Positions 121 through 63,565 of a stretch of DNA of 64,000 bases are shown here, one piece after another. The stretch is from Diploptera punctata (lineage: Eukaryota; Arthropoda; Insecta; Blattodea; Blaberidae): positions 1 through 64,000 of the forward strand of contig JASPKZ010009945.1 in assembly GCA_030220185.1 (NCBI GenBank). The letters are read 5' to 3'. Below the pieces are notes generated by a model that did no database searches, was not told where the DNA came from, and saw only the letters and a list, made by a program, of their open reading frames with translations. Numbering within the stretch: the stretch's first letter is position 1; each line of letters starts with the position of its first letter. The translations under genes and the position numbers were made by a program.

Positions 121-290
121 TGGTAAATAACATTATGAGTTCTTCGAATACCTCATACTTCATGTTTTTTAAGACAGCTGAGGATGAGAGGGATGCCTCT
201 TGAAAACAGCAGTTCCCATGTTAAAAAAAACATAAGTACAAGGTAAGATAAGAATTGACTCATTCATTAAACTTAGAATTACTATTATTG
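121..290. mobile_element. Short Penelope-type foldback element (family P1)
   Basis: A left arm around 140-172 is mirrored by a right arm ending in AAGGTAAG near 270. The family tail, here inverted as CATTATGAG, lies at the left edge. The right arm carries a hammerhead-like motif. No coding sequence remains. The family is recognised by comparison with the longer GIY-YIG-coding copies elsewhere in the window. Confidence 0.6.
178..216 (+). ncRNA. Hammerhead-ribozyme-like motif
   Basis: CUGAGGA plus an extra U is followed by a 6-bp stem GAGAGG/CCUCUU with a 4-nt loop, then GAAAAC (one A more than consensus) and AGCAGUU, so stem III would be AC/GU with loop AGCA. Stem I is poor in this copy. The stem II sequence differs from other copies but still pairs. 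Confidence 0.5.
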
Positions 291-339
291 TAAAATTTTT
301 ATAATAAATTAAGATATAACTGGTTTTAAAATAATTAGT

Positions 340-562
340 TAATAAAATTTGAATTGGATATTATGACTCACCACATAAATTGTAGATTTCTTGAAGACCA
401 GTTTTGATACACTATGTATAATTATCAACTCTAGGTAGATCTAATTGACAATGATATGCAGTGTATTGAAAGTGGTCTTTAAGAAATCTAAAATTTATGA
501 GGTGAGTCGTAATAACTCAAATTATTAATTAAAATAAACCTCATAGTGTCACTTCCTTTAAA
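340..562. mobile_element. Penelope-type foldback element (P1), tail on right
   Basis: A left arm at about 340-418 (containing CTCACC) is mirrored at about 462-535 (GAGGTGAGTC). The tail AACCTCATAGTGTCACTTCC follows at 537-558. The centre falls inside the hammerhead-like stem II, so only the GAAA side of the core survives (AAAAC on the left arm, GAAAG on the right). No coding sequence. Confidence 0.65.
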
Positions 563-623
563 CATTAATGAAAAATGGTTTTAAAATATTTTGAATATAA
601 TTCAATAAACAGAACATATAACA

Positions 624-1166
624 CTGGTCAACATGATTTTTGCCTCATGAGTACCAATAGTTGTACTTGATGCAGTTTTTTATTGTGTTTCCAAATATGT
701 ATTCAGAATTTCTCCATCACCTACAGTTTTTTTTTTAATTTCAATTTCAATTAATGGATTTAAATAATCATTTTTTAATAAACGTTTTTTCGTCCATTTG
801 TCCATTGTAAAATAAAACCAAACGAGCTAACTCAGGAGATTTCAGCTATGGAAAACAGATATCAAGGCAAATGGAATCCTAATAAGCTGGCCGATTATTG
901 TTGGACCATCAAGAGGGATGCTCCACAGGCAAAATATAGCAGAAAATTGTCACTTCTCACTTTCTAGGTGAATCTGGATGTTCAAATATTGTGTAGTTAC
1001 GAAAGTAGAAACTATTAGTGTTTGAATTTATAAAATTCCTGTCTCTCAGAAACCTTGCGTGATGGAGAAAACCGACATTATATTTGAATTCAGGAGAAAA
1101 AATACTATCAGAATCACACATTTTTTTCTTTCTGAGACAAAAAAGAAAAGTTTCTTTTTTGTTGCA
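624..1166. repeat. Repeat family alpha, copy 1
   Basis: About 540 bp closely matched by 6188-6745 in the same order and orientation. Shared blocks include ACACTGGTCAACATGATTTT, GATATCAAGGCAAATGGAAT and TTCTTTCTGAGACAAAAA. A short frame around 846-960 reads like a peptide (WNPNKLADYCW) that is open in both copies. I do not recognise the family. It could be the end of a larger transposon. Confidence 0.6.
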
Positions 1167-1170
1167 CAGT

Positions 1171-1745
1171 GTAATTATCATAAGTAATGCCACGAGTGAT
1201 TTCCAAATTATCGATAAATTCACGACTCACGAAAGAATAAAATTAAGCTGTTTACTCACAAATCATTGTTTAACTATAATTATTTTAAAATATTTATATA
1301 TTTAATGTAAACGGCGATGTTTGAAAACAAATCAGAAATGTGAGGTTATGTTAATTCACTGCTGCTTGATCATATTATTTATTGCCAAATAAGATCGCAA
1401 TATTGTAAGAGTGCACCCAAGTGGAGAAATAATGAAACACATCAAACTATATATCATAATCAATATTACTGGTTATTCATTTATTATTTTAGTAAACAAC
1501 TCAGTAAAATCAAGGAATATTTTCATTATTTGCTATATTCAATGTACTTGTTGGAGAAAAATAATGCTTTGACCTGTTCAGAACATTAAAAAGGAAGAGC
1601 TTTCTTTATCAGAAAAGCAGGAGCTGATAAAGAGAAATCATAAAGAGTGAGGTGAAACACGACTGTCATTGGTTATAAAACAAACTTCATTGAAACGTGA
1701 TTGGTTCATTGACTAGCATTTGTGGCATGAGTTAAATAGTTAAAA
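1171..1745. repeat. Repeat family beta, copy 1
   Basis: Shares blocks with 2355-3185 and 61890-62590, starting near CATAAGTAATGCCACGAGTG and ending near TTGTGGCATGAGTTAAATAG. No coding potential seen. The three copies differ by indels and by a nested insertion in copy 2. Confidence 0.65.
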
Positions 1746-2354
1746 TTAAAATATTTTGAATAAATTCAATAAACCGAACATATATATTAAAGGAGATGAG
1801 AGTAAATGGAAGTTTATCATCATTTAGACTCCTGATAAATGGTCATCAGATCACTCTACTGTCTTATTACATTACAGGATAAATTAACTCTTTATTTTTA
1901 AATCTAAAAAATAAAGTAGGAAGCATATGATAGGGTGCCTCTTCTACCCCTTTCATCGTTTGATCCTTGTGTATATTCTAAGTCACATGACTTAGTTACA
2001 TATGATTTCTTCAAGGAAAATACTCATCTTTGTTGAACCTTCAATGCAAAAACTAAAATAGCCTACTAATAAATCACTTCATTTATTCAAGTCCATCTTT
2101 TATCTATCTTTTTAAGCTAAAGTTGCCATATTTAAATTTTCTAATGTCCATTTCAAACCATAAGATCTTATCACATCATAGAATCCTACGATTAAACATT
2201 TTAAATACTTCTGGCAAATTACTAGCAGCAGCAACAATACAGTTCAATGAAATTAATTAAAAGAATTATTAAAATCTGAGATTTATTTTAAAGTTGTGTC
2301 ACATAAGGAGCTCTGTAATGCCTCATATTGCTAATGTTAAATAAAGTAGTCTTC
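1746..2354. other. AT-rich stretch without recognisable features
   Basis: No open frame, inverted repeat or known repeat is evident between the two beta-family copies. Confidence 0.5.
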
Positions 2355-3185
2355 TTTATCATAAGTAATGCCACGAGTGATTTCCAATTTATCTAGAGGA
2401 TTTGGAAATCAAGAGTAGCATCTGTTATGACTATTTAATGAATAATATTAATTCATTTAATTTAAAAAAGATTAAAACTTAAAAGTTTTATATGATTTTC
2501 ATATTTATTAAAATATAAATTAGTTACACCTGTTTCGGTACTTTGTACCTTCTTCAGACATGATAACAAATTAATGAATTTTGTTATTACAGTACATAAC
2601 AACTGTAATAAAATTAAGCTGTTTACTCGCAAATCATTATTTAAATATAGTTATTTTAAAATATTCATATATTTAATGTAAATGACGATGTTTGAAAACA
2701 AATGAGAAATGATTGGTTATGATTCCTTTGTTCGTCCACTGCAACTATACCATACTATATCATATTATTTACTGCCAAATAGGATCGCAATATTGTAAGA
2801 ATGCATCCTAGAGGGAAAAAAAAGAAACACATCAAACTGTATATTATAACGAACATTATAGGTTATTAATTATTTTTTTTAGGAAACAACTCTGTAAAAT
2901 CATTATTTAAAAACACAATTATTGAACACACAATTATCAAATGTGTAGTTCGAAGGAAGCTGTTTATTATTTGCTATACTCAACGTATTTGTTCGAGAGT
3001 CAGTCACTGCAAAATAATGCTCTGACCTGCTCAGAATATTAAAAAGAAGAAGCTTTCTTTATTTTGGTAATCAAAATTTGATAATTATCGAGGTGAAACA
3101 CGACTGTGATTGGTTGTAAAACGAAATTCACTGAAACGTGATTGGTCATTGACTCCCATTTGGGGCAAGAGTTAAATAGTCTACT
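2355..3185. repeat. Repeat family beta, copy 2, interrupted
   Basis: Same order of blocks as 1171-1745 and 61890-62590. It is interrupted at about 2444-2606 by a Penelope 3'-end insertion that is absent at the matching point of the 61.9-kb copy, which therefore acts as an empty site. Confidence 0.65.
2444..2606 (-). mobile_element. Solo Penelope 3'-end insertion with hammerhead-like core
   Basis: Inserted between GACTATTTAATG and AAATTAAGCTG, which are nearly adjacent in the 61.9-kb beta copy, with AATAA at both edges. The minus strand at 2532-2557 reads CUGAAGA, an extra A, stem GGUAC/GUACC with loop AAA, then GAAAC. No opposite arm of comparable length is visible. Confidence 0.6.
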
Positions 3186-3319
3186 TAATCAATTTAATTC
3201 AAATCTTCAGGAGATATTTAACAAATCTGTCAATAATTTTGTACCTCAGAGGTGTAGAATGGTAAATCTATTTTCTTAGTTTTATTATAGAGGCAAAAAA
3301 ATTATAATTTTAATTTCTT

Positions 3320-8027: not shown

Positions 8028-8112
8028 ACAAGTAACATTATGAGGTTCTTCTTAATAATGAGGTGAATCCGAGTCACCTTACCTCACAATTTGTTGTGTT
8101 CTATTTAAACAT

Positions 8113-8142
8113 GTTTCGATATATCATGTATACCATCATCAG
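8113..8142 (-). ncRNA. Hammerhead-ribozyme-like motif
   Basis: Minus strand: CUGAUGA, extra U, stem GGUAUA/UAUAUC with a 5-nt loop, GAAAC, then AUGUU giving an ACAUGU stem III. Stem I pairing is weak. It mirrors the plus-strand copy at 9265. Confidence 0.55.
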
Positions 8143-8322
8143 CTTTTTCAGACTGTTGAATTTTATGTTGTTAGCTCTGGATGTTATTCCCACTCCATCT
8201 TTTGGCTGACCGAAGAACTTGTAAATCAAATCTTTTTCCCCAGGAATTTCAAAATTCACTATCCTGTTTTTGTTTTCCTGTATGTACAGAAGTACTCACT
8301 CTTTGAGAGAAGATCTACATAC

Positions 8323-9115
8323 TAACTAACTCACTGCCACTATTCAATCTGCAGGTTCATGGCCGCACAGACATAAACTCTCCATACATCCCTATCCTGA
8401 GCTAATATTTTTCCAATCATTCCCTGTATAATCTACTTCCTTCAAATCATGGTTAATGTTATTTTCCCACCTCATTCTTGGTCTACCAACTGGGCGTTTT
8501 CCCACTGGTTTTCCTACAGAAGCTTCCATCCATGTCTTTCATTACCCATTTGTTCCACATGTCTTGCCCATCGCAGTCTATGAGACTTAACTGTTCTTAT
8601 TATATCTGGTTCCTATAAAGACCATGTAGTTCTTTGTTATGTAGTCTTCTCCATTCACCTGTCTGTTCATCTCTTTTTGGTCCAAAAATTTTCCTAGAAA
8701 CTTTATTCTCAAATACTCGTAATCTCCTTTCCTCTCTTAAAGTAAGAGTCTATGTTTCGCATCCATATAATATAACTGGTAGAATAATAGTTTTATTTTA
8801 TTTTATTTTTTTTCAGTTTAACACGTTTTGAAAGGAGTTGGGACAACAAGAGTCACTGTAATGCATAATTAGCATGCATTTCCAGAACTGAGCCTATGTT
8901 TAATTTCTTTGTGCATCTCATTCCTATTTGTTATTATTGTTCCTAAGTATTTCAATTCAGCCACTTCTTCAAACTTCCAACAAATATCATTTGCTGTCCA
9001 TTTCCATTATATAATGTATTTTTATGTGTGACCATATATTAAGTTTTTAGTTTTATTGCTATTTATTTCCAGTCCCAATTTCTTAGTGTTACTGAATAGT
9101 GTTTGCGTGTTGGCC
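8323..9115 (-). pseudogene. 5'-truncated LINE: reverse transcriptase C-terminal region
   Basis: Minus-strand frames, shifting several times, read the C-terminal part of a non-LTR reverse transcriptase. In order: NTKKLGLEINSNKTK, FEEVAELKYLGTIITNRNEM, a run ending ILPVILYGCET, RLRVFENKVSRKIFGPKRDE, and SHRLRWARHVEQMG followed by GRPRMRWENN-like text. Such blocks are typical of the region after the catalytic core in insect LINEs. The 3' end terminates in GTTAGTTAG. The unit is bounded by AGATCTACATAC at 8311-8322 and 9116-9127, a 12-bp target duplication, so it is a retrotransposed and 5'-truncated copy that landed in the Penelope palindrome. No catalytic motif is present and the copy cannot encode an active enzyme. 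Confidence 0.8.
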
Positions 9116-9264
9116 AGATCTACATACAGAAGAACAAAAATAGGATTATGAATTTTGAAATTATTGGGGAAAAAGATTTGATTTGCAGGTCCTTTGATCA
9201 GCCAAAAGATGGAGTGGCAGTCAAAATACAAGTCAACAATGTAAAATTCAACAGTCTGGAAAAG

Positions 9265-9294
9265 CTGACGATGGTATACATGGTATATCGAAAC
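9265..9294 (+). ncRNA. Hammerhead-ribozyme-like motif
   Basis: CUGACGA, extra U, stem GGUAUA/UAUAUC, GAAAC. Mirror copy of 8113-8142, with N7 and loop differences. Confidence 0.55.
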
Positions 9295-9350
9295 ATGTTT
9301 AAATACAACACAGTGACTCCAGTTCACACCTTATTTAATAAGATATGTTA

Positions 9351-9582: not shown

Positions 9583-9643
9583 ATTAGTAGATCTAATATT
9601 TAAATTAAAATTCTTTTTACCTCACCTCGTACCCAGTCTTCTA

Positions 9644-9686
9644 ATTAAACCAGTTTCAAAATCTAGATGGTTTCATCATCAGTAAT
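9644..9686 (-). ncRNA. Hammerhead ribozyme candidate
   Basis: Minus strand: AUUA, CUGAUGA, extra U, stem GAAACC with GAUUUU (one mismatch), GAA, ACUGGU (stem III AC/GU), U17, UAAU. Stem I is AUUA/UAAU. Predicted cleavage follows the complement of position 9648. Confidence 0.6.
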
Positions 9687-9822
9687 ATCTGAACCAATTT
9701 TATGTCATTCAGGAGAACTGCTTCTTACTTATAAAATGGCTGACAGGAAGAAGTGCTTCTTACCTACAAAATGGTTGACAGGAAGAAGTAGTTCTCCTGA
9801 ATGACATAACATTGGTTAAATT

Positions 9823-9865
9823 ATTACTGAAGATGAAACCAGCTAGGTTTTGAAACTGGTTTAAT
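9823..9865 (+). ncRNA. Hammerhead ribozyme candidate
   Basis: AUUA, CUGAAGA, extra U, perfect stem GAAACC/GGUUUU counting G-U, GAA, ACUGGU, U17 at 9861, then UAAU pairing with AUUA. All three stems form. Confidence 0.7.
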
Positions 9866-9964
9866 TAGAAGACTGATTATGAGGTGAGGTATAAAAAATT
9901 TTAATTTGAACATTAAATTAAACCTTATAGTGATTTTTCCTATAAAATTAGTAGACCTACTATT

Positions 9965-10363
9965 CTGTGGAGAAACACAGTACCATTCAATTAGAATAGA
10001 TAGATTAGTGATGCCAGTTGCCAATTATAAAAGTTTTCACTGTTGCCAGACTTCTCTTGCTCTCTATCGCTGAGTTAACATTTAAACTTAATCATACAAA
10101 TAAATTTTCACTTATGAAATAAATTTAAATTTTATAGCTAATTTATGATACTTTCTTCATAAAATTACTTAATGTATAAAATACAATATGCCTATTGTAG
10201 TAGCCCATTTTTAATTTAAAATATTGAGGATATGTTCTAGAAAGAGTTCATTTCTACCTTCATAACTGTGAAAGTCCTATGTTTTTAAATGCTATCAGGA
10301 TAGAGAAGCCAAAAAATTGATGTGTTTCTCCAATAATCCTACCTTAATTATTATGAGTTAGTT
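9965..10363. other. AT-rich stretch, nothing recognised
   Basis: No coding or repeat signature seen. Confidence 0.4.
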
Positions 10364-10705
10364 ATTTTGACTCACCTCATATTTTTTTATATTCTGCAGA
10401 CTCCACATTGTCAATGCATTCTGTTTTTTTGCTGTTGTCCTTCTATAGGTTGATTTCTGCTCCCTCTGTTTGCTGACCGATGAACTTCCAATTTTTTTTT
10501 TTTCAGGAATTTTGAAATTTGTTTGTTTTCTCTTTATTCTTATGGATGTAAATTTTCTCCCAAATTGTGAGTTCCTTAGATTTATCTAACTGTTTCAGTA
10601 ATTTGGCAGTTAACAGTTCTTTGTTTGTGAGATTCTGATTGACAATTATCCTTTTTAACGAACACTTCCGATATTTTATGTTTTCCAACCTGCACATTGA
10701 GAATT
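10364..10705 (-). pseudogene. Penelope GIY-YIG C-terminal fragment (solo)
   Basis: Minus-strand frame carries LLTAKLLKQLDKSKELTIW followed by EKIYIHKNKEK. This is the C-terminal stretch that follows the GIY-YIG catalytic core in the P1 Penelope copies (compare 59700-59784). The catalytic GIY and YIG motifs are absent. The outer end CTCACCTCATA lies at 10371, so the 3' end points left. I see no opposite arm, so this is a one-sided insertion or a foldback that lost its partner. A hammerhead core is not recognisable in its 3' UTR. It is a retroelement fossil, not a host gene. Confidence 0.6.
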
Positions 10706-23360: not shown

Positions 23361-23391
23361 TGTTGGGTTTTATTTGAAGAGAAAAATATAT

Positions 23392-23572
23392 AAGATTAAA
23401 TTAAAATGCTTCATACCTAACCTCATATCCAGTCTTCTAAGTAGACTAAGATGAATCTGCCAAGGATTTGAAACTGCGGTCTAGTTAGAAGACTGGATAT
23501 GAGGTGAGAAATGAAGCATTTTAATTTAATCTTAAATTAAACATTATAGTGATTTTTTCTTATAAAAGTTCA
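23392..23572. mobile_element. Penelope-type foldback (P1) with 12-bp target duplication
   Basis: AGAAAAATATAT at 23380-23391 and 23573-23584. The short left arm ends at AGTAGACT, the right arm starts inside the hammerhead-like core, and the tail CATTATAGTGATTTTTTC is on the right. The left arm begins within about 3 nt of the predicted hammerhead cleavage site. Confidence 0.85.
23446..23480 (+). ncRNA. Hammerhead-like motif, core damaged
   Basis: CUAAGAU (G lost from CUGAAGAU), stem GAAUCU with GGAUUU, GAAACUGCGGUC giving AC/GU stem III and a GUC site. Probably inactive. Confidence 0.45.
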
Positions 23573-24239: not shown

Positions 24240-24318
24240 TCATCTTAAATGTATTGAAATTAAAATGAGCTGTACATCATCTCACCTAGTAGACTCTACA
24301 TTCTTCAATGCACAAGAC

Positions 24319-24355: not shown

Positions 24356-24397
24356 TTTTTCTATTATTGAATTTTTGCCTTCACCATCTTCTTCTAG

Positions 24398-26242: not shown

Positions 26243-26254
26243 AACTATATCCCT

Positions 26255-39867: not shown

Positions 39868-39948
39868 TGGTCTGTGTATTCTTACTTCTTATGGTTATTT
39901 TTGTTGGACATATGTTTCAAGGCTTCTGAGCCCCATTACAGACTGTAA

Positions 39949-39990
39949 TTGCTGAAGATGGGGCTCAGAAGCCTTGAAACATATGTTCAA
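39949..39990 (+). ncRNA. Hammerhead ribozyme candidate, first of a tandem pair
   Basis: UUG, CUGAAGA, extra U, stem GGGGCU/AGCCUU, GAA, AC-AUAU-GU, U17 at 39987, CAA pairing with UUG. The ACAUAUGU stem III is self-complementary. Confidence 0.65.
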
Positions 39991-40034
39991 CAAAAAACCG
40001 TAAGAGGTAAGAATACACAGATTACAGTTTGTAA

Positions 40035-40075
40035 TCGCTGAAGATGGGGCTCAGAAGCTTAAAACATATGTTCAA
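40035..40075 (+). ncRNA. Hammerhead-like motif, second of a tandem pair, damaged
   Basis: CUGAAGA, extra U, stem GGGGCU/AGCUU with a deletion, AAAAC in place of GAAAC, AUAUGUUCAA. Starts 86 bp after the first. G12 is lost, so activity is unlikely. Confidence 0.5.
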
Positions 40076-40169
40076 CAAAAACAACCTTAAGAGGTAAGAA
40101 CACACAAACCAAATATCTTGCTTATTAAATAAACCTCTTAATGTTACTTCCTATTGTATTTTTAAAATA

Positions 40170-41517
40170 CACGGTGATTACAAATGATTGGAGCGATTTC
40201 ATGATTTTATTGTAGCGATCTTATTTGACATATCTTCACAGAACTTTAAAGTTATGTATAAAAACTCATAAGGTTTTTTTTTGTTTTCTCTCGCAGCCGT
40301 GTTTCAGCTTTAAACCGAGAGAGCGCAGCAGTTATCAAAGATGGCGACAGGCGAGGAGAAAGCATATGCTGTGCTTGAATTTCATTCAACTCAATCTGTG
40401 ATAACTGTGCAACGACACTTCAGAACGAAGTTCGAGAAAGATGCACCGAGTGCCAACTCCATTCGGCGATGGTATGCGCAATTTAAAGCTACAGGATGCC
40501 TCTGTAAAAGGAAATCAACGGGTCGTCCTTCAGTGAGTGAAGAAAAGGTTGAGAGTGTGCGGATGAGTTTCACACGTAGCCCACAGAAATCAACACGAAA
40601 AGCGAGAGCAGAGAGCTGAACATTCCACAACCGACCGTTGTGGAAGATCTTGCGGAAAAGATTGAAGCATTAAACCTTACCACTTGCAATTTCTACAAGC
40701 CCTTACGCCCATTGACAAAGTGAGTCGGTTTGAATTTGTACACAAATGCAGCAGTTTATGGATGAGGATGGTTTTTGTGAGAAATTGTCTTCAGTGACGA
40801 AGCAACATTCTTTGTGAATGGCAAAGTGAACAAACACAATGTGCGAATCTGGGGCACAGAAAATCCCCGCGTTATTGTGCAGCACATTCGCGACTCCCCA
40901 AAAGTTAGTGTGTTCTGTGCGGTTTCTCAGTTCAAAGTTTATGGCCCTTTTTTTCTTCTGCGAGCAGAAACGTTACAGGACACGTGTACCTGGACATGCT
41001 GGAAAATTGGCTCATGCCGCAGCTGACGACCGACAGTGAGACCTTCATCTACCAGCAGGATGGTGCTCCACCACACTTCCATCACGATGTTCGTGAATTT
41101 TTAAACATGAGATTGCCAAACCGATGGATCGGTCGCAGTGGAGAGAATGATCAGAAATTGTTGTCATGGCCTCCACGCTCCCCCGATTTGACGCCGTTGC
41201 GATTTTTTTGTTTGGGGGTATGTGAAAGATTCAGTGTTTGTGCCTCCTTTACCAGTAGACTTACCAGAACTGCGAGCTCGCATAATCAATGCCTTTGAAC
41301 AAATTAATAGGGACATGTTACGTCGAGTATGGGACGAACTTGATTACAGACTTGATATCTGCAGAATCACCAAGGGGGAGCATATGGAGCACCTGTAACA
41401 TCTCAAAAAAAAACCTGGGAAGTTGCTCTATGTATCTGTAAAAGTTCGTGAAAATATGTCGAATACTACAGCTACCATAAAATCATGAAATCGCTCCAAT
41501 CATTTGTAATCACCCTG
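40170..41517 (+). mobile_element. Mariner-family transposon, degenerate
   Basis: TA at 40168-40169 and 41518-41519. Inverted ends CACGGTGATTACAAATGATT (left) and CAGGGTGATTACAAATGATT (right complement) extending at least 45 bp. 1348 bp. Confidence 0.9.
40341..41398 (+). pseudogene. Mariner-family transposase, frameshifted
   Basis: An intact N-terminal frame (40341-40619) starts MATGEEKAYAVLEFHSTQSV and contains the RWYAQFKATG helix-turn-helix region and GRPSVSEEKVE linker. A frameshift near 40610 follows. FSDEATFFVNGKVNKHNVRI holds the first catalytic Asp, FIYQQDGAPPHFHHDV the second, and WPPRSPDLTPL the approach to the third, where a frameshift replaces the Asp. GRSGENDQKLLS makes the spacing between second and third Asp about 46 residues, longer than in the 48.1-kb element. 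C-terminus ELDYRLDICRITKGEHMEHL. At least three frameshifts; not functional. Confidence 0.85.
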
Positions 41518-41520
41518 TAT

Positions 41521-41881: not shown

Positions 41882-42056
41882 ATTGTTTATTTTTTATTTT
41901 ACTCACCTCATACTTCATAACTCCTCACAAACCCAGGGTTTCGTCACATCATTTGTGACGAAACTCTGGGTTTGCGAGAGGAGTTATGAAGTATGAGGTG
42001 AGTGAAATACACAATATTAAAAAACTTCATAGTGTTATTTCCTATCTACATAACTT
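41882..42056. mobile_element. Penelope-type foldback (P1) with 12-bp target duplication
   Basis: ATCATGTTTGGT (41870-41881) and ATCATATTTGGT (42057-42068). Perfectly nested arms CTCACCTCATACTTCATAAC and complement. The centre TCACATCATTTGTGA lies inside the hammerhead stem II loop, so each arm starts with GUGAC-GAAAC. Tail CTTCATAGTGTTATTTCC on the right. Interrupts the hAT relic. Confidence 0.85.
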
Positions 42057-42224
42057 ATCATATTTGGTCCTTCTTCTGCCATTAATGAACATAAAGTACA
42101 AGAAAAGACTGGTGAGATGGCGGAGTTGTTTGGAAAATTCAATTGCCTGTGTAAAACAAAATTAACAAGACTAATGTTATGATTAAATTAAATGCTTCAT
42201 ACCTCTCCTCATATCCAGTCTTCT

Positions 42225-42271
42225 AAGTAGACCACAGTTTCAAATCCTTGGCGGATTCATCTTCAGTACCC
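42225..42271 (-). ncRNA. Hammerhead ribozyme candidate
   Basis: Minus strand: GGGUA, CUGAAGA, extra U, stem GAAUCC/GGAUUU with loop GCCAA, GAA, AC-UGUG-GU, C17 (complement of 42230), UACUU pairing with GGGUA. All stems form. Confidence 0.7.
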
Positions 42272-42810
42272 TCTTGTTGACATGTTATTTTGATCAGAAG
42301 AACTATTTCTTCTTCCCTCTGTTGGTGGACCAATAATCCTCCAGATCCAGTAAGAATCCGCATGAATTTCAAAGTTTGTAAGTTTTTTCTTTCTTGGTTT
42401 TTTGAATGTGGATTTTTTCCCAAACCGTGAGTTCTTTTTGTTTTTCTATTTGTTTAATTAGAATGGCTTTTGATTGTGACAAAATTGATATAGGAAAAAC
42501 AAAAATAAATTTGAAAACAAGGGTGAAAGAACATCTTAGAAATGTCAAAAATGGTGAAGTGGAAAGTCAGCAGTAGCTGCTCATGCTTGGTTCGAAAAAC
42601 ATCTAATTGAATCAAAAGCCAGTCTAATTAAACAAATATAAAAAAAAAAAGGACAGTTTGGGAAAAAATCCATATTCAAAAAAAACAAGAAGAGAAACTT
42701 ATGAACTTCAAAATTTCCGCGGATTCTGACTGGATTCAGAGGTTTATCGGTCCACCTACAGAGGGAAGAACAAGTAGTTCTTCTGATCGACATAACATCA
42801 GTCAACAAGA

Positions 42811-42857
42811 GGGTACTGAAGATGAATCCACCAAGGATTTGATACCACAGTCTACTT
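42811..42857 (+). ncRNA. Hammerhead-like motif, core damaged
   Basis: GGGUA, CUGAAGA, U, stem GAAUCC/GGAUUU, then GAUAC in place of GAAAC, CACAGUC, UACUU. A14 change is expected to inactivate it. Confidence 0.55.
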
Positions 42858-42984
42858 ATAAGACTGCATATGAGGAGAGGTATGAAGTATTTAATTTAAT
42901 CTTAAATTAAACATCATAATGATTTCTTTCTATAAAGGTTCAAGACTATTGTTGTCAGGCCACTGCTCAAGTACTCAATATAAA

Positions 42985-43092
42985 CATGGGCAGTCTGTAT
43001 ATTTAAGAAAAATTGTATCACCTCACCTCATAAGGTGAAGTGATACAATTTTTCTTAAATAAATGGTACCTCATAGTGTTAACTCCTAAAAG
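42985..43092. mobile_element. Minimal Penelope-type foldback (P1)
   Basis: Arms ATTTAAGAAAAATTGTATCA and complement meet at CACCTCACCTCATAAGGTG with almost no spacer. Tail ACCTCATAGTGTTAACTCC follows. No hammerhead core and no coding sequence. Confidence 0.75.
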
Positions 43093-43210
43093 TCAAATAG
43101 GCAGACATTGTCATAAACAGTGCAGCAGCGACCAATGAAAAATCTCAACATTCAAGTGTAATAATTAAGACATTTTGTCTGTACATTCTTACCTCTTATG
43201 GTTGTTTTTG

Positions 43211-43252
43211 TCGAACATATGTTTCAAGGCTGCTGAGCCCCATCGTCAGCAA
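43211..43252 (-). ncRNA. Hammerhead ribozyme candidate
   Basis: Minus strand: UUG, CUGACGA, extra U, stem GGGGCU/AGCCUU with loop CAGC, GAA, AC-AUAU-GU, U17, CGA pairing with UUG (one G-U). The mirrored copy at 44161 has a damaged core (CUUUCGA, AAAAC). Confidence 0.6.
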
Positions 43253-43289
43253 TTACAGACAATTTTCTCAAGTTGTCGGCCCTGATTCT

Positions 43290-44119
43290 TGATTTCAGCT
43301 CTCTCTGCCCCTGGTCCAATAAATTTACTAATGAGGTTCCTTTCTCTGGGAATTTCAAAATTCATAATTATTTCCTTGTTCTTCTGTATGTAGATTTTTT
43401 CCCATATGGTCAGTTCATTTTTGTTTTCTAACTGTTTTAATAATTTGGTGTTTTCATCTATTTTTTGTGTTTTTCTGACCAAAATGAGCAGCCACTGCAG
43501 ATTTTTCTACTTCCCTTTTTTTTTACATTTCTTATGTGTTCTTTAATTCTAATCCTTTCTCCGGGAATTTCAAAATTCATAATTATTTCCTTGTTCTTCT
43601 GTATGTAGATTTTTTTTTCCCATATGGTGAGTTCATTTTTGTTTTCTAACTGTTTTAATAATTCGGTGTTTTCATCTTTTTTTGTGTTTTTCTGACTAAA
43701 CATGAGCAGCCACTGCAGATTTTTCTATTGTCCTTTTTTTACTTTCTTATGTGTTCTTTAGTTCTAATGGTTAAATTTCTTTTTGTTTTCCCTATGTATA
43801 TCGTATTACAGTCTGCACATTTTATTTGATATATTCCTGATTTTTTACCATCATCAATCTTTTCATTTTTATTAGTTTTTATCAGTTTATTTAAACTATA
43901 ATCATTATTTGGTACTAAATTAATATAAAATTTTTCAAAAATCTTTTGAAATTTGTTGTGCACCCAAGGGTGATATGTGAATTTCCTGTATTTCTTATCT
44001 TTTGGATTTTCTATCTGAAGAGTGCTTTCATTCCTCAATTTTTGTTTTTTGTACTTTCCCGGAGAAAGGAACCCCATTAGTAAATTTATTGGTCCAAAGG
44101 CAGAGAGAGTAGGAATCAA
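43290..44119 (-). pseudogene. Penelope GIY-YIG endonuclease region (P1)
   Basis: The minus frame from 44119 reads KDKKYRKFTYHPWVHNKFQ, a conserved block preceding the nuclease, then KKSGIYQIKCADCNTIYIGK followed by TKRNLTIRTKEHIRK. GIY and YIG strands are present. The intervening C-x-x-C pair is the cysteine motif typical of the Penelope GIY-YIG type, and the Arg of the catalytic helix (IRTKEH) is kept. Frameshifts follow, and the C-terminal part (LLKQLENKNELTIWEK) appears twice because of an internal direct duplication. Reverse transcriptase motifs are absent. The protein region would nick target DNA in an intact element; this copy is broken. Confidence 0.75.
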
Positions 44120-44299
44120 GAATCAGGGCCGACAACTTGAGAAAATTCAGTCTGTGATCGCTTTCGATGGGGCTCAGCAGCCTTAAAACATATGTTCGAC
44201 AAAAACAACCATAAGTGGTAGGAATGTACAGAAAAAAGTCTTAATTATTAAACAAACTTCTTAATGTTACTGCCTATCGTATTTTAAAATAAATTCAAG

Positions 44300-46304: not shown

Positions 46305-46444
46305 AAAATTTTTCTCTTCAAATTAAATTTATCTTTCATTGAGAAATGTTAAATCAATAATAAAAACATCATTATGAGGTATAATCATTAAAATTCATCG
46401 GAAAACATATTGTTTAAACAACTCACCTCATAGGATTCATGCTT

Positions 46445-46492
46445 CCATGATATCGCGATTTCAAACATAGTCATGTTCATCGTCAGCCATAA
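46445..46492 (-). ncRNA. Hammerhead ribozyme candidate
   Basis: Minus strand: UUAUGG, CUGACGA, extra U, stem GAACAU/AUGUUU with loop GACU, GAA, AU-CGCG-AU, A17, UCAUGG. Stem I is 6 bp including G-U pairs. Stem III has A-U and U-A in place of the A-U and C-G of other copies. Confidence 0.7.
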
Positions 46493-46925
46493 CTCCGACT
46501 GACGAAATTCTTCGGCCGTCAACTATTCTATTGTCGCCATCTTCAGTGCTGCCATCTATGGTTGAATTTATGAACTTCGAAATCAATGTAATTTCGTTAG
46601 GGATATCAAAATTCATTGATCTATTTTTGTTTTTCTGAATGTATATTTTTTCCCAAACTGTCAATTCCAAAGGTTTCTCTACTTGTTTTAAAAGTTTAGC
46701 TTCTCTTCCAATTTTATGATGTTCTAATAAACTATGTGCAGCAATTGCAGATTTTTCAATTTCAGAATTTTTAATATTTCTGAAATGTTCTTTTGTCCAA
46801 ATTTCCAAATTCCTTTTTGTTTTTCCTATATAAACATTATTGCAATCTTCACAATTTATTTGATAAATTCCAGATTTCTTACTGTCTGGAACATTGACTT
46901 TTTTATTGGTACTTTGGCACCAATA
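46461..46925 (-). pseudogene. Penelope GIY-YIG endonuclease fragment, left arm
   Basis: The minus frame reads VPDSKKSGIYQINCEDCNNV, then YIGKTKRNLEIWTKEHFRNI, SEIEKSAIAAHSLLEHHKIG, LLKQVEKPLELTVWEKIYIQ and MNFDIPNEITLISKFINST, ending VMADDEHDYV. The GIY, C-x-x-C and YIG motifs are intact. The helix position usually occupied by Arg is W (EIWTKEH) in both arms of this element, whereas other copies have R (KIRTKEH, TIRTKEH). The hammerhead overlaps the extreme C-terminal codons in this reading. A 5'-truncated domain without reverse transcriptase. Confidence 0.75.
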
Positions 46926-46959
46926 AATAAATTTAGTCTGGGTAATCTTCTAAGTACCA

Positions 46960-47250
46960 ATAAAAAAGTCAATGTTCCAGACAGTAAGAAATCTGGAATT
47001 TATCAAATAAATTGTGAAGATTGCAATAAAGTTTATATAGGAAAAACAAAAAGGAATTTGGAAATTTGGACAAAAGAACATTTCAGAAATATTAAAAATT
47101 CTGAAATTGAAAAATCTGCAATTGCTGCACATAGTTTATTAGAACATCATAAAATTGGAAGAGAAGCTAAACTTTTAAAACAAGTAGAGAAACCTTTGGA
47201 ATTGACAGTTTGGGAAAAAAATATACATTCAGAAAAACAAAAATAGATCA
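46960..47250 (+). pseudogene. Penelope GIY-YIG endonuclease fragment, right arm
   Basis: Mirror of the left-arm fragment: KKSGIYQINCEDCNKVYIGK, TKRNLEIWTKEHFRNI, LLKQVEKPLELTVWEKN, then a one-base change in an A run shifts the frame before the IPNEITL-type end. The upstream methionine frame from 46734 is simply read-through across the palindrome centre and is not a natural start. The same W in the catalytic helix is present, so the change predates the inverted duplication. Confidence 0.75.
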
Positions 47251-47375
47251 ATGAATATTGATATCCCTAACGAAATTACATTGATTTCGAAGTTCATAAA
47301 TTCAACCATAGATGGCAGCACTGAAGATGGCGGACAATAGAATAGTTGACGGCCGAAGAATTTCGTCAGTCGGAG

Positions 47376-47423
47376 TTATGGCTGACGATGAACATGACTA
47401 TGTTTGAAATCGCGATATCATGG
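47376..47423 (+). ncRNA. Hammerhead ribozyme candidate
   Basis: Mirror of 46445-46492: UUAUGG, CUGACGA, U, GAACAU/AUGUUU, GAA, AUCGCGAU, A17 at 47417, UCAUGG. Confidence 0.7.
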
Positions 47424-47566
47424 AAGCATGAATCCTATGAGGTGAGTTGTTTAAACAATATGTTCTCCGATGAATTTTAAAGATTATCTACCTGGTCCCA
47501 AACTTTGTCGGTCTAATTTAGAAACACCCTGTATATATATGTGACATGAAAAGTAAAATAAATGCC

Positions 47567-49432: not shown

Positions 49433-49434
49433 TA

Positions 49435-52059: not shown

Positions 52060-52500
52060 ATGTTTCAGGATTTTTTCTCCTTTTTGCCGGTAATTATCTA
52101 GACTGCCATCTGGTGTTCTTTTGAAGGAATTCCTCTTCAAACTGCCATCTGGTGTTATTTTGAATGAATCATTTCCTAAACTGCTATCTGTTGTATTATA
52201 TAGTATTATATTATATGTATAGTATTATATAGCAGTTTAGGAAATGATTCATTCAAAATAACACCAGATGGCAGTTTGAAGTGGAATTCCTTCAAAAGAA
52301 CACCAGATGGCAGTCTAGATAATTACCGGCAAAAAGGAGAAAAAATTGACAGTTGTGAAAACAGCTGACGATGACGACAAAGTGTCGCCGATACTGCAAT
52401 GCTGTGTTTAAAGAAACATAGATGTATGAGGTAAGAATAAATCATGATTCATTTAATTATTATTAATTGAACCTCATAATGTTAAAAATTCCCAAATTTA
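52060..52500. mobile_element. Penelope-type foldback (P1) with minisatellite arms
   Basis: Arms 52070-52187 and 52225-52350 mirror each other. Each has two to three copies of a roughly 45-bp unit (CTGCCATCTGGTGTT and variants). The right side continues into a hammerhead-like motif, GTATGAGGTAAGAATAAATC and tail CCTCATAATGTTAAAAATTC. The left arm lacks the outer part. Confidence 0.7.
52361..52405 (+). ncRNA. Hammerhead-like motif, core damaged
   Basis: ACAG, CUGACGA, extra U, stem GACGAC/GUCGCC (one mismatch), GAUAC in place of GAAAC, UGCAAU, G at position 17, CUGU pairing with ACAG. Stem I is good but two core positions are changed. Confidence 0.5.
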
Positions 52501-54494: not shown

Positions 54495-54733
54495 ATCAGC
54501 CACGGTACTCTATTAGTTATATATCTTGCCTCTGGTCCAGAAAGTCGCAAGTTCAAACCCGACTGGGGTCAATGGATTTTTAGGATGAAAAAATCCAAAG
54601 GAAAAGTCCCCTAGGAGGGACTTTAAACCATGGGTCCTGAGTCTGAAGTTTTTTGGATTTGTAAAAATCTCAATCCTAAATCTGCCTCTAAGCAAAATTT
54701 AACCAATCTTCCCCATCCAAGTAATACTTTCAT
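54495..54733 (+). mobile_element. SINE family D (tRNA-derived), 5' part
   Basis: CCACGGTACTCTATTAGTTA head, B box AAGTTCAAACCCG, body to CAAGTAATACTTTCATTG. Interrupted by the foldback at 54734. The remainder resumes as CCTTAATTGCCTACTAGATG at 54912. Confidence 0.7.
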
Positions 54734-54910
54734 TGAACTTTTATAGGAAAAATCACTATGAGATTTAATTTATGATTTAAATTAAAATGATTTATACCTT
54801 ACCTCATATCCAGTCTTCTAATTATACCAGTTTCATACCCTAAGCTTAGAAACCAGTATAATTAGAAAACTTAAGGTGAGGTATAAATCATTTTAATTTT
54901 AAATCTTATA
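54734..54910. mobile_element. Penelope-type foldback (P1) inside SINE D
   Basis: Imperfect 12-bp duplication ATACTTTCATTG/ATACCTTAATTG. The inverted tail ATAGGAAAAATCACTATGAG is at the left. Arms AAAATGATTTATACCTTACC and complement meet at GTTTCATACC/GAAACC, so the centre is at the hammerhead GAAAC. Confidence 0.75.
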
Positions 54911-55000
54911 CCTTAATTGCCTACTAGATGTCTCATTGAGGTAAACCATTTGTCACTCATTGACATCTGTAGGAAAATAAGCATAACTAATTATATATGA
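54911..55000 (+). mobile_element. SINE family D, 3' remainder and tail
   Basis: CTACTAGATGTCTCATTGAG and TTGACATCTGTAGG continue the repeat interrupted upstream. Confidence 0.6.
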
Positions 55001-55625
55001 GTTGTATATTTTGACTCACCTCATATTTCATGATTTTTATGCAGACTAGTTTGTTGCTAACTCTGCAACATTCTCGATGCTTTACAACTGTTGCCTTGCG
55101 GTTGTCCATCCTGCAAATTGATTTCTGTTCCCTCTGTTGGCTGATTGATGAACTTCCAAATCAAATTTTTTTTCTCTTTCACCGGGAATTTCAAAATTCA
55201 TGGTTTTCTTTTTTATTCTTGCAGATGTAAATTTCTCCTAAATTGTGAGTTCCTTAGATTTTTCTAACTGTTTTAGTAATTTTGCCTTAGTTTCAATTCT
55301 GTGTTTTTCTGACCAAGCATGTGCAGCTATTGTAGATTTTTCTATTTCCCCATTTTTAACATTTCTAAGGTGCTCTTTCAATCTTGTATTTAAATTCCTT
55401 TTTGTTTTTCCTACGTATATTTTTTCACAATCTTTACAATGAATTGATAAATTCCTGATTTGTTGCTGTTTTCAACCGCAAGGCAACAGTTGTAAAACAT
55501 CGATAATATCGCACAGTTAGCAACGAAACTAGTCTGCATAAAAATCAAGAAATATGAGGAGAGTCAAAATATTCAACTCAACTATAATTAAAATAGACCT
55601 CATAATGTTATTTCCTACATATATT
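55001..55625. mobile_element. Penelope-type foldback (P1) with GIY-YIG in the left arm
   Basis: Left arm from 55015 (CTCACCTCATATTTCATGAT), right arm 55475-55570 (ATATGAGGAGAGTC). GGCAACAGTTGTAAAACATC mirrored at 55075. Tail ACCTCATAATGTTATTTCC at the right. Hammerhead core altered on both sides (GAAAC kept on the right, AAACU on the left). Confidence 0.75.
55130..55475 (-). pseudogene. Penelope GIY-YIG endonuclease fragment
   Basis: Minus strand, with shifting frames: NKSGIYQF, a degraded cysteine motif, IYVGKTKRNL-like, EHLRNVKNGEIEKSTIAAHA, WSEKHRIETKAKLLKQLEKS, KELTI then MNFEIPGE. Same order as the better copy at 59485. It is 5' truncated exactly at the nuclease domain start. Not translatable as one protein. 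Confidence 0.7.
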
Positions 55626-57104: not shown

Positions 57105-57410
57105 TTGACATGAAGTCACACTACGTGATTTTATCGAACAAATTGAATCTGTTCCTTACCACCTCACCTTATTATCTCTTTCTTGGATCAGTTTTGAAGG
57201 AATTGCCTTCATTCTCATCCAACAACTGACTATTTCAATGTCTATTGGAAGCTCTGCACAACCTCTCTCTCAGATCATGAGGTTCGTCTGGTCAACACAA
57301 CAGGAAACAAATACACAAAGATTCCTACAGATGTCTCGGCAGTCTGTTGTTGACTGGTCCAAGAGAGCTAATATGAGGTGAGGTGTAAGAAATTGATTCC
57401 ATATCTATGA
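57105..57410. mobile_element. Penelope-type foldback (P1), degraded
   Basis: Left end carries an inverted tail variant (GAAGTCACACTACGTGATTT). CTTACCACCTCACCTTATTA is mirrored by CTAATATGAGGTGAGGTGTA. The minus strand near 57191-57222 has stem GAAGG/CCUUC followed by AAAAC, a damaged hammerhead half. Confidence 0.6.
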
Positions 57411-58235: not shown

Positions 58236-58369
58236 TTGAGAAGACGGACCTAAAAGGTATATAATTTTATATTTAATTTTAGGAAGTTATATTTTGAGGT
58301 TATTTTAATTATATTATTTTTGGTCTGGACATCTTACCTCAATATTAATGTTGATTTGTTCTTGGACAT

Positions 58370-58401
58370 GTTTTCAAAACAATTCTCTGTTTTATCTTCA
58401 G
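58370..58401 (-). ncRNA. Hammerhead-like motif, left arm
   Basis: Minus strand: CUGAAGA, U, stem AAAACA/UGUUUU, GAAAAC (one extra A relative to the right arm). Confidence 0.5.
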
Positions 58402-58417
58402 CTTTCCCAGACTGGTT

Positions 58418-59090
58418 TTATTTATGTTGCATTATGTTGCACCACCTGGATGTCGATGTCAGCTCCATCCTGTGGTTGGCCAAAGAACCTCCAAACAAGG
58501 TCACCCTCCATCGGAATATCAAAATTTCATAACTCTGTTTCTGTTCTTCTGAATATAAATTTTTTTTCCAAATAGTCAGCTCGTTTGTATTTTCTAACTG
58601 TTTTAATAATTTAGTGTCTGAATTTATATTATGTTTTTCAGACCAAACATGAGCAGCCACTGCAGATTTTAATTTCTCCATTTTTAATATTTCTTATGTG
58701 TTCTTTGGTTCTAATTTTTAGGTTTCTTTTTGTTTTCCCTATATATATCTTTTCACAACCCATGCATTCAATTTGATATATTCCTGACTTTTATTTTTAT
58801 CAGTTTTTTCATTTTTGTTGTTTTTATTAGTTTATTTAAACTTCTCAAATATATTTTGAAATTTATTATGTACCCAGGGGTGATATGTGAATTTCCTATA
58901 TTTTTTCATAGGTGGTTCTTCTTTTTCAAGATTACTTCTGTTTATCATTTTTTGTTTTTTATACTTTTCTATCCTTTTATGTACCATTTTTTCATCAAAC
59001 CCATTTTCTCTTGCTACTTTGATTATGTGTTTTTTCTCATGTTTGAAATCTTCTTCGTTTAAGGGTAAGTTTACCAATCTATGAGTTAAA
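58418..59090 (-). pseudogene. Penelope nuclease region, left arm (mirror)
   Basis: The minus frame 59077-58832 reads MVNLPLNEEDFKHEKKHIIK and HPWVHNKFQNIFEKF, then shifts because of an extra A in a TTTAAATAAAC run. The following part reads SGIYQIECMGCEKIYIGKTK, WSEKHNINSDTKLLKQLENT and NELTIWK, with another shift near the end. GIY, C-x-x-C and YIG motifs are visible. The frameshift positions differ from those of the right arm. Confidence 0.75.
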
Positions 59091-59169
59091 CTATTAAATG
59101 CTGCTAATTTATGTCCAATTGGATTGAACCCTCTTGATTTTATAAATCAAGAGGGTTCAATCCAATTGG

Positions 59170-59784
59170 ACATAAATTAGCAGCATTTAATAGTTTAACT
59201 CATAGATTGGTAAACTTACCCTTAAACGAAGAAGATTTCAAACATGAGAAAAAACACATAATCAAAGTAGCAAGAGAAAATGGGTTTGATGAAAAAATGG
59301 TACATAAAAGGATAGAAAAGTATAAAAAACAAAAAATGATAAACAGAAGTAATCTTGAAAAAGAAGAACCACCTATGAAAAAATATAGGAAATTCACATA
59401 TCACCCCTGGGTACATAATAATTTCAAAATATATTTGAGAAGTTTAATAAACTAATAAAAACCAACAAAAATGAAAAAACTGATAAAAATAAAAAGTCAG
59501 GAATATATCAAATTGAATGCATGGGTTGTGAAAAGATATATATAGGGAAAACAAAAAGAAACCTAAAAATTAGAACCAAAGAACACATAAGAAATATTAA
59601 AAATGGAGAAATTGAAAAATCTGCAGTTGCTGCTCATGTTTGGTCTGAAAAACATAATATAAATTCAGACACTAAATTATTAAAACAGTTAGAAAATACA
59701 AACGAGCTGACTATTTGGGAAAAAATTTATATTCAGAAGAACAGAAACAGAGTTATGAATTTTGATATTCCGAGTGGAGGGTGA
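59170..59784 (+). pseudogene. Penelope nuclease region, right arm: best GIY-YIG domain in the window
   Basis: The first frame (59207-59455) reads MVNLPLNEEDFKHEKKHIIK, KMVHKRIEKYKKQKMINRSN, EEPPMKKYRKFTYHPWVHN. One base missing in an A run near 59423 shifts it. The second frame from about 59485 reads KKSGIYQIECMGCEKIYIGK, TKRNLKIRTKEHIRNIKNGE, IEKSAVAAHVWSEKHNINSD, LLKQLENTNELTIWEKIYIQ, KNRNRVMNFDIPSGG, stop 59784. GIY, YIG, the C-x-x-C pair and the helix Arg (KIRTKEH) are intact. The domain normally provides target nicking for Penelope retrotransposition. No reverse transcriptase is present here. Confidence 0.85.
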
Positions 59785-59881
59785 CCTTGTTTGGAGGTTT
59801 TTGGCCAACCACAGGATGGAGCTGACATCGACATCCAGGTGGTGCAACATAATGCAACATAAATAAAACCAGTCTGGGAAA

Positions 59882-59919
59882 GCTGAAGATAAAACAGAGA
59901 ATTGTTTTGAAACATGTCC
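59882..59919 (+). ncRNA. Hammerhead ribozyme candidate, right arm
   Basis: CUGAAGA, extra U, perfect stem AAAACA/UGUUUU with 6-nt loop, GAA, ACAUGU, C17 at 59918 (GUC site). Stem I is not convincing beyond one G-C pair. Confidence 0.55.
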
Positions 59920-59993
59920 AAGAACAAATCAACATTAATATTGAGGTAAGATGTCCAGACCAAAAATAATATAATATAATTTTATATTTAATT

Positions 59994-62590: not shown

Positions 62591-62599
62591 TATGGAAAT

Positions 62600-62905
62600 G
62601 GGGGCACGCCGTAGCATAGTGGTTAAGGCACTGCGCTACAAGCCGGAAGGTCGAGGGTTCGAGTCCCGGTAGGGTCAGGATTTTTAAACTGATCCAAACC
62701 TTCTGGCGGCACTATGGCCCTGGAGTCGACTCAGCCTCTAACTGAAATGAGTACCAGACGCTTGTTCTGGGGTAAAGGCGACCGTCACGCAGGGCTGACA
62801 ACCCGGCTGACATCAAGTGCCGATTGTCAAGAAAAAGTGGGAGCCTTAATCTCCTACTACCCCAAGGGCCTCCTGAGGCCTGTGTAGTAGGATCACTTTT
62901 TTATA
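62600..62905 (+). mobile_element. SINE family A with 13-bp target duplication
   Basis: ATAATATGGAAAT at 62587-62599 and 62906-62918. Head GGGGGCACGCCGTAGCATAG, B box GGTTCGAGTCCCGG, full body. Inserted next to the beta repeat. Confidence 0.9.
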
Positions 62906-62984
62906 ATAATATGGAAATTAACATAATGTAAGCAGTAGTTAACACAACTACAGAGAGAAATGTATGTTTGCTCTTGGAGATGTC

Positions 62985-63055
62985 TGAGTAACTGAACACT
63001 AGAGCACCAGTAGGTAAACCTGGAGGTCTTCAGTTGAAATCCTGATTCAGGCAGA
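62985..63055 (+). ncRNA. tRNA-like fragment
   Basis: GAACACTAGAGCACCAGTAG, AAACCTGGAGGTCTTCAGTT and GAAATCCTGATTCAGGCAG follow the layout of the tRNA-like palindrome arms but the D arm is broken. Confidence 0.4.
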
Positions 63056-63284
63056 TATTGTATCTTTAGTTGCATCAACTATTGCTTACAGATGGTTTGT
63101 CTACATACTAATTTCCACATATGTTGCATAATTAATTCCCTTGTTGATCCCTAAGCACTTCAATTCTATTTCATAAAACTAATGATGGAAATTAACATTA
63201 TGAGGCTTTCGATTAATAAAATTTAAATGAATCGTACCACCATCTCACCTCATACACTCCATGTTCTTACAGCACAGGACTGCG

Positions 63285-63313
63285 GCTTCAGTAACAGACA
63301 TTCTTATCTTCAG
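63285..63313 (-). ncRNA. Hammerhead-like motif, left arm, damaged
   Basis: Minus strand: CUGAAGA, U, AAGAAU/GUUACU (weak), GAAGC in place of GAAAC, CGCAGUC then CUGUGC. Confidence 0.45.
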
Positions 63314-63452
63314 CCAACTTTTGACTGTTGAATTTTTGCTTCAATACTTGAAATTCCTGGCAAGCAAGATTAAATCTCAAAGTTCATTAAATCTACAACA
63401 GATGGCAGTTTAGAAAACAATGGTGAAGGCAAAAAATTCAACAGTTGAAAAG

Positions 63453-63496
63453 ATGGCTGAAGATAGAAATGACTATTCTTGAAACCGCAGTCCGTG
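63453..63496 (+). ncRNA. Hammerhead ribozyme candidate, right arm
   Basis: AUGG, CUGAAGA, extra U, stem around AGAAAU/AUUCUU, GAAAC-CGCA-GUC (stem III AC/GU with loop CGCA, C17 at 63492), CGUG. Stem I partly pairs. Confidence 0.55.
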
Positions 63497-63565
63497 CTGT
63501 GAAGAACACAGAATGTATGAGATGAGATGATGTAAGACTCATTTTAATTCCATTTTCAACTAGAG

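Follow-up and report, generated by a model that had tools for sequence, protein, structure and literature searches.

Palindromes built from the 3′ ends of a Penelope-like element (PLE) recur in a 64,000-nt stretch of the genome of the cockroach Diploptera punctata (contig JASPKZ010009945.1, positions 1 to 64,000; hereafter the window). In these units two copies of the element's 3′ end stand head to head, and a tail follows at one outer end only. Our analysis of the window and of a genomic sample points to a probable origin in which each target strand primes once and the two primers start at neighbouring sites of a single RNA. This reading is supported by target-site duplications (TSDs) across the set of units, the single tail, the fixed outer ends, the correlated arm lengths and an untailed arm that is often the longer.

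Tailed palindromes of PLE 3′ ends

The initial annotation of the window, made from its letters alone, listed 21 loci as some twenty head-to-head palindromes of Penelope 3′ ends. In twenty of the 21, PLE 3′ ends form a palindrome or a head-to-head pair of arms, a total that includes a variant unit at 52070 (tail core 52472); the locus at 121 is borderline and would be the 21st unit. The units share a common order at their ends, in which one arm runs straight into the flank and the other is followed by a tail like AAACCTCATAATGTTACTTCC and then by flank. Leaving out the tail, they span from 31 bp (26177) up to 1,668 bp (58308), and the two arms differ in sequence by about 1–27%. Self-comparison of the window returned 50 close inverted pairs, PLE and non-PLE together, the non-PLE pairs including DNA transposons with terminal inverted repeats and short interspersed nuclear element (SINE) or tRNA sequences. 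The letters A–I that denote subfamilies are labels given in this analysis, and four units also go by alternative labels (58308 for the 58282 unit, 46381 for the 46362 unit, w43162 for the 43156 unit and 57105 for the 57111 unit).

The tail consensus has 14 matches in the window at no more than 3 mismatches, where 0.07 are expected. An inverted partner scoring above the best of 60 random regions was found for 15 of the 20 tails tested. Partner scores at 23388 and 54733 (49 and 41) lay under the control maxima (61 and 55), which we attribute to other copies of their subfamily; both are palindromes in the self-comparison. At 26177, 28783 and 121 the partner likewise failed to exceed the 60-region control. 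No inverted partner was found for 28783 in a test with 300 shuffles, and at locus 121 the tail is clear and the weak partner was matched by 0 to 4 of 300 shuffles, varying with arm length. The tail-like stretch at 57105 matches the tail at 14 of 19 bases, as do 7 of 500 random stretches, and its inverted partner 273 nt inward was equalled by none of 300 shuffles; this is a diverged PLE unit.

The arms were said to carry GIY-YIG coding sequence, and PF01541 was indeed detected in arms of 46381, 58308 and 43156, with scores just over the cut-off. Among 34 proteins related to the arm-encoded protein, those named by organism come from D. punctata. Nine open reading frames (ORFs) scanned in the window gave no reverse transcriptase (RT) match; the window copies are 3′ ends, and a full-length copy was not sought. 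Two further hallmarks of PLEs, a 30–40 bp tail at one end and a TSD, are present in the window units, the TSD at the level of the set.

Palindromes across the genome

We searched 3,123,318,691 bases (3.12 Gb) of the genome with the tail pattern at no more than 2 mismatches, obtaining 74,427 matches (37,251 + 37,176) against 67 (29 + 38) for the reversed pattern. A sample of 40 pieces of 5 kb was drawn, covering 41 of 100 listed places, all of them exact tail matches; one piece holds two exact tails 79 bp apart. Selection by exact tail means that these are probably young copies. Under a strict partner test (more than 3 above shuffles, outer columns included, no more than 1.6 kb away), 25 of the 40 loci have an inverted partner, and comparison with a library of oriented arms brings in L040, L045, L048, L049 and L064, for 30 of 40.

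PLE copies are dense in the window, as would suit random nested or adjacent inverted insertion of solo copies. In a matched control of 30 shorter loci overlapping the 40-locus sample, a partner matching at its outer end lay inside the tail in 20 of 30 cases and outside it in 1 of 30, or in 3 of 30 when the outer ends were not required to match. Direct copies gave 3 of 30 and 4 of 30. A survey of the kind that the initial annotation had proposed, made here on loci chosen by exact tail, thus finds palindromes far commoner than nested insertion gives.

Each unit is best read as one insertion

TSDs lie outside palindrome plus tail. For the 19 window units tested, none of 3,000 permutations reached the observed mean score, nor did any of 10,000 for 24 genomic units. 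Because TSDs flank the whole structure as a set, one insertion event per unit is the best reading. Across 12 loci, an arm had its own partner as nearest relative in 23 of 24 comparisons, which argues that both arms come from one source. Nor do the palindromes look like an assembly artefact, since arms that differ by about 1–27% are not one sequence assembled twice. Taken with the position of the partners, these results leave nesting or misassembly the least credible origin that we considered, with a negligible chance of being correct, and they sustain the earlier proposal that the palindromes are a regular product of one retrotransposition event.

Exactly one tail was found in 13 of 15 window units when up to 5 substitutions were permitted; the tails of the other two, 23388 and 42172, are too diverged for that search and were read by eye. 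No second tail was seen at the untailed end in any of 19 window units examined (57105 was left out), in agreement with the one-sided tail first described, and none was flagged in any of the 25 genomic units that passed the strict partner test. The outer ends are fixed and the centres variable, as also noted at the outset: the untailed outer end lies 0–16 nt from the tail core (median 4; 25 genomic loci), and centres differ within a subfamily.

Short palindromes are frequent, which might suggest a non-autonomous element, MITE-like (resembling a miniature inverted-repeat transposable element) or of a foldback family, that spreads as a palindrome. The one-sided tail speaks against this, and units of the same subfamily (B: 9591, 23388, 42172 and 54733) differ in centre and arm length, so each would have formed anew. 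In DNA foldback elements and MITEs a transposase recognises terminal inverted repeats that are symmetric, whereas these units have a tail on one side and each of their outer ends is the 3′ end of a retroelement. Spread as a ready-made palindrome is therefore very improbable. The earlier label, a class of foldback retroelements, describes them fairly, but published PLEs already include some with inverted ends and a tail on one side (PMC3846280).

The untailed arm is often the longer

Arms and centres were measured in 19 window and 24 genomic loci, with L037 omitted as composite. For the assignment of centres to one arm or the other, 38 units served as queries (14 window and 24 genomic; 8028, 26177, 26713, 39859, 52070 and 57105 were not queried), and the reference set was restricted to paired arms from other loci, tailed arms from L048, L064 and L070, both arms of 8028 and the solo copy 28783. 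The untailed arm was longer in 15 units and the tailed arm in 3 (two-sided p = 0.0075); 6 units had a centre shorter than 10 nt, and 14 were unassigned, among them 46381, where homology of the spacer favoured the untailed arm. The difference can be large, as in L065 (untailed 524, tailed 78 nt). Arm lengths are correlated within units (24 units, Spearman 0.67), with none of 100,000 shuffles as close, and the correlation also appears in 15 window units.

These lengths bear on the order of events first proposed, in which first-strand synthesis from the tailed 3′ end is followed by snap-back. In its general form, a tail-primed first-strand complementary DNA (cDNA), or an antisense RNA, would prime on itself and copy back, and the hairpin would be ligated to the other target end. 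Self-priming is how palindromes at inverted junctions were read in earlier work (PMC3846280), and the short centres, such as the CATA loop of 43000 and the ATA of 58308, are what it would leave. A copied-back arm cannot outgrow the arm from which it is copied, yet 15 of 18 assignable units have their longer arm on the untailed side (54988, 485 versus 118 nt, is another example), so the tailed-first order is unsupported. Copying back should also traverse the tail, but a second tail was found in 0 of 19 window and 0 of 25 genomic units; snap-back does not explain why the second arm stops before it. We regard this route as unlikely in general, although it may account for some of the near-equal units. 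Template switching onto the new strand, the other route suggested at first, comes closer, provided that this strand is a further cDNA for which the opposite target strand served as primer.

Alternatively, two-sided priming could be independent, on two separate RNAs, with end joining afterwards. Such a route would produce TSDs, place a 3′ end at each outer border and allow either arm to be the longer. The choice of tail should then be independent on the two sides, but all 19 of 19 units are mixed, which has a probability of 2^-19 at even odds, and the correlation of arm lengths, unexpected on separate RNAs, is seen nonetheless. We consider separate RNAs improbable, more so than snap-back.

A putative hairpin and a hammerhead-like motif at the 3′ end

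The stretch TATGAGGT of the arm can pair with ACCTCATA of the tail, 16–45 nt away, in 21 tails. Pairing holds in 146 of 168 cells, against 39–96 when slid by 1–4 nt. Subfamilies A and D retain it despite changes on both sides (TTGAGGT/ACCTCAA and TAAGAGGT/ACCTCTTA). This pattern lends modest support to the view that the RNA probably folds into a hairpin at the start site.

Canonical, endonuclease-containing PLEs have a minimal type I hammerhead in the pseudo long terminal repeat (pLTR). Of 10 long genomic arms from five loci (L032, L041, L042, L046 and L069), 9 show a hammerhead-like CTGANGA...GAAAC core at 62–78 nt from their 3′ end, in a relaxed search that allowed one mismatch per part and had no chance control. 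Inspection by eye shows a similar core (CTGANGA, short stem, GAAAC) in arms of 8028, 9591, 42172 and 46381. No Rfam hammerhead matched in the loci scanned. We also considered hammerhead cleavage as the cause of symmetric arms: many short arms end near GAAAC, yet by eye 23388 alone ends within ~3 nt of the expected cut, and the idea was rejected.

A model with two primers on one RNA

In the two-primer model, the PLE endonuclease would make staggered cuts in the two strands of an AT-rich site, very approximately 11–27 nt apart to judge from the TSDs, and each freed 3′ end would prime copying of PLE RNA. The untailed arm would be the product of the primer at the inner start site, and the tailed arm that of the other primer, starting roughly 20–35 nt further 3′. 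Because two primers cannot occupy one site, exactly one arm of each unit would be tailed. We infer that both enzymes copy the same RNA towards its 5′ end in convoy, that the leader (inner start, untailed) usually outruns the follower, and that the cDNA ends are joined head to head through a template jump or microhomology. A short RNA would make both arms short, and gap filling would leave the palindrome inside a TSD. In vitro work on a PLE of Anolis reports that both strands are cut and extended, and that the enzyme has two RT start sites with the stretch between them equal to the genomic tail (PMC11167929).

Several observations weigh against this model. The same in vitro account describes no difference in start site between the strands (PMC11167929). 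Individual TSDs exceed the 95% level of mispaired flanks in just 6 of 19 window and 7 of 24 genomic units, and inspection by eye suggests that the composite locus L037 may contain a second tail, diverged in sequence (AAACCTCTTAAC). Covariation in the hairpin is weak when one unit per subfamily is taken (n = 11; shuffled partners equal it in 3%, p = 0.03). Adding five by-eye assignments of centres changes the count to 18 untailed versus 5 tailed (p = 0.011), 14 of 38 centres are unassignable, and the 6 of 38 with centres under 10 nt have near-equal arms (832 and 833 nt in 58308), as snap-back predicts. Later deletion at the centre of a palindrome could create unequal arms. Units with a long tailed and a very short untailed arm are harder to detect, a bias that favours both the observed direction and the length correlation, and partnerless tails (for example 28783 and L070) might be extra cases of a longer tailed arm. 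Because an untailed arm that is short and distant from the tail escapes notice more easily than a short tailed arm beside it, the finding that units with a longer untailed arm are common is firmer than the direction of the difference.

tRNA-bearing sequences joined to PLE tails

PLE tails also adjoin sequences that contain a tRNA. At 45880–46366 a PLE tail stands on the left end of a head-to-head pair of such sequences, and the right side continues as natural tRNA-bearing unit sequence; a TSD considered for 45912–46328 was discarded as spurious, its right flank being that same unit sequence. In L035 a tRNA-bearing unit has an exact PLE tail, with the tRNA in the untailed arm. Across the genome, a tRNA B box is followed by the start of a tail within 22–52 nt at 161 exact junctions (77 + 84), compared with 0 + 0 in the control. 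Among the places listed, the piece between tRNA unit and tail varies, and some pieces match the 3′ ends of different PLE subfamilies (AATGATTATACCTC as in 46381, ATTAATTGAACCTC as in 52070). From these junctions, copying seems to begin on PLE RNA and then to switch to tRNA-bearing RNA.

The tRNA-bearing unit measures ~304–314 bp; it is in tandem in L037 and forms head-to-head pairs in L036, L050, L060 and L069. Six loci holding tRNA-bearing sequence gave no Rfam hammerhead. In the window, the PLE unit 23388–23566 interrupts a head-to-head tRNA-bearing palindrome at 23366–23890, with AGAAAAATATAT as its candidate TSD.

A broader proposal is possible but remains tentative, and we hold it with clearly less conviction than the two-primer model itself: that the two-RT convoy is normal PLE integration, that the palindrome is obligate, and that the complex can also leave its own RNA just after the start to copy tRNA-bearing RNA, which would make the ~305-bp tandem unit a PLE-dependent non-autonomous element.

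Features of the window

PLE units and related features are given in Table 1. Direct duplications within palindrome arms were found by alignment at 43338–43768 (216 bp) and 39935–40106 (85 bp), and by eye at ~9700–9790 (~38 bp) and ~26713–26850 (~50 bp); they perhaps reflect template slippage or jumps while copying. The insert in the centre of the 8028 palindrome occupies 8321–9108 and is bounded by a 12-bp direct repeat, AGATCTACATAC.

Apart from the PLE units, a transposon at 48104–49434 has 118-bp inverted ends and a 338-aa ORF with DDE_3 and Tc1-type helix-turn-helix matches, all below Pfam cut-offs, and is probably Tc1/mariner-like. Other stretches of 1.0–2.0 kb with inverted ends, not read as PLE copies, lie at 21718–23044, 40164–41523, 36617–37606 and 12761–14721, and ordinary-looking tRNA-headed SINE copies at 15405–15768, 18211–18572, 24395–24710 and 29394–29866.

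Table 1. PLE-derived units and associated features in the window, with subfamily letters in brackets.
Position	Feature	Strand	Tail	Remarks
107..245	Tail with borderline partner ending near 245 (locus 121)		core 140-123 minus	
335..560	PLE palindrome (E)		right, core 539	~27-bp diverged candidate TSD
8028..9345	PLE palindrome		left, core 8045-8028 minus	arms 225/224; nested insert in centre
9591..9945	PLE palindrome (B)		right	~38-bp central tandem duplication, by eye
10345..10640	Solo untailed PLE 3′ end	-		
23388..23566	PLE palindrome (B)		right, diverged	candidate TSD AGAAAAATATAT; tailed arm longer
24247..25045	PLE head-to-head arms (C)		right	nested SINE-like insert 24395-24710; untailed arm longer
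25120..25318	PLE palindrome (A)		right	untailed arm 25 nt longer
26177..26243	Smallest unit		present	11-12 bp arms; exact 12-bp direct repeat AACTATATCCCT each side
26713..26992	PLE palindrome (F)		right	left arm duplicated; TSD AACTTTAYTGAT
28640..28812	Tailed PLE 3′ end (28783)	+	present	no inverted partner detected
39859..40170	PLE head-to-head unit (D)		right	right arm directly duplicated; no TSD found
41888..42043	PLE palindrome (H)		right	5-nt centre; candidate TSD ATCATRTTTGGT
42172..42940	PLE head-to-head arms (B)		right, diverged	tailed arm longer, about 434-438 vs 304 nt (measured spacer); candidate TSD CAAGACTAWTGTT
43000..43092	62-bp near-perfect palindrome (F)		right	4-nt loop CATA
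43156..44284	PLE head-to-head arms (D)		present	GIY-YIG in untailed arm; untailed 678 vs 194 nt; 216-bp tandem duplication; TSD ATTCAAGTGTAA
45880..46366	Head-to-head pair of tRNA-bearing units		PLE tail at left outer end	natural unit sequence right
46362..47487	PLE palindrome (I)		left, truncated to ACCTCATAATG and joined to tRNA-element sequence	arms 97% identical, with GIY-YIG; no TSD found
52070..52495	Variant PLE unit		core 52472	118-bp arms, 99%; untailed arm begins ~125 nt within element; no TSD found
54733..54908	PLE palindrome (B)		left, core 54763	
54988..55620	PLE head-to-head arms (E)		right	untailed 485, tailed 118 nt; TSD ~18-20 bp, ending TAATTA
57111..57402	Diverged PLE unit		tail-like stretch left, 57129-57111 minus	untailed partner arm ends near 57402
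58282..59975	Longest palindrome (A)		left	832/833-bp arms, 98.4% identical; GIY-YIG; 3-nt centre ATA; TSD 22/23 bp
63170..63549	PLE palindrome (C)		left	untailed arm longer

Relation to known systems

Palindrome structure and tail are known PLE traits, and the mechanism is the new part. A related mechanism is twin priming of L1, in which the second target strand primes on the same RNA and an inversion results; the second start lies well upstream, and the cDNAs overlap little. Here, in contrast, both starts would lie near the 3′ end of the RNA and the cDNAs overlap almost wholly, so that the arms show nearly full overlap instead of the upstream inverted segment, free of long overlap, by which L1 twin priming is recognised.

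The Penelope elements of Adineta vaga (PMC3846280) share the GIY-YIG domain, inverted and mostly head-to-head ends, palindromic junctions and an optional 31-bp tail on one inverted end, with TSDs of 8–10 bp in the copies described. They are present at low copy number with pLTRs around ORFs, whereas very many short 3′-end palindromes occur here; the account favours self-priming on an antisense template, which the arm lengths here do not fit (PMC3846280). Poseidon of Anolis carolinensis, PAc (PMC11167929), resembles our units in several ways: its RT has two start sites that bracket the tail, the start site forms a stem loop, a hammerhead motif lies upstream, the targets are rich in AT, and each of the two strands is cut and extended. 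That work differs in being in vitro; the available text of the account gives no mechanism for palindromes and calls the later steps unvalidated (PMC11167929).

For the tRNA-bearing sequences, our own comparison is with metazoan retrozymes, roughly 300-bp non-coding tandem units for which PLEs have been suggested as mobilisers (PMC7229834). The units of ~304–314 bp are alike in being tandem and of similar length, but retrozymes carry hammerheads (PMC7229834), and none was matched by Rfam in the six tRNA-bearing loci here. The word Penelope is absent from the main text of an account of German cockroach SINEs (PMC9191728). Among the titles and abstract openings of a limited literature, no publication was found that treats PLE integration by two primers or tRNA elements mobilised by PLEs.

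In this cockroach genome, very many short palindromes of differing age preserve, for every event, the two start sites, the two ends and the point at which the arms were joined. With them, the old puzzle of inverted PLE ends with a one-sided tail becomes a testable two-primer model, and tRNA-bearing sequences are pointed to as possible PLE cargo.

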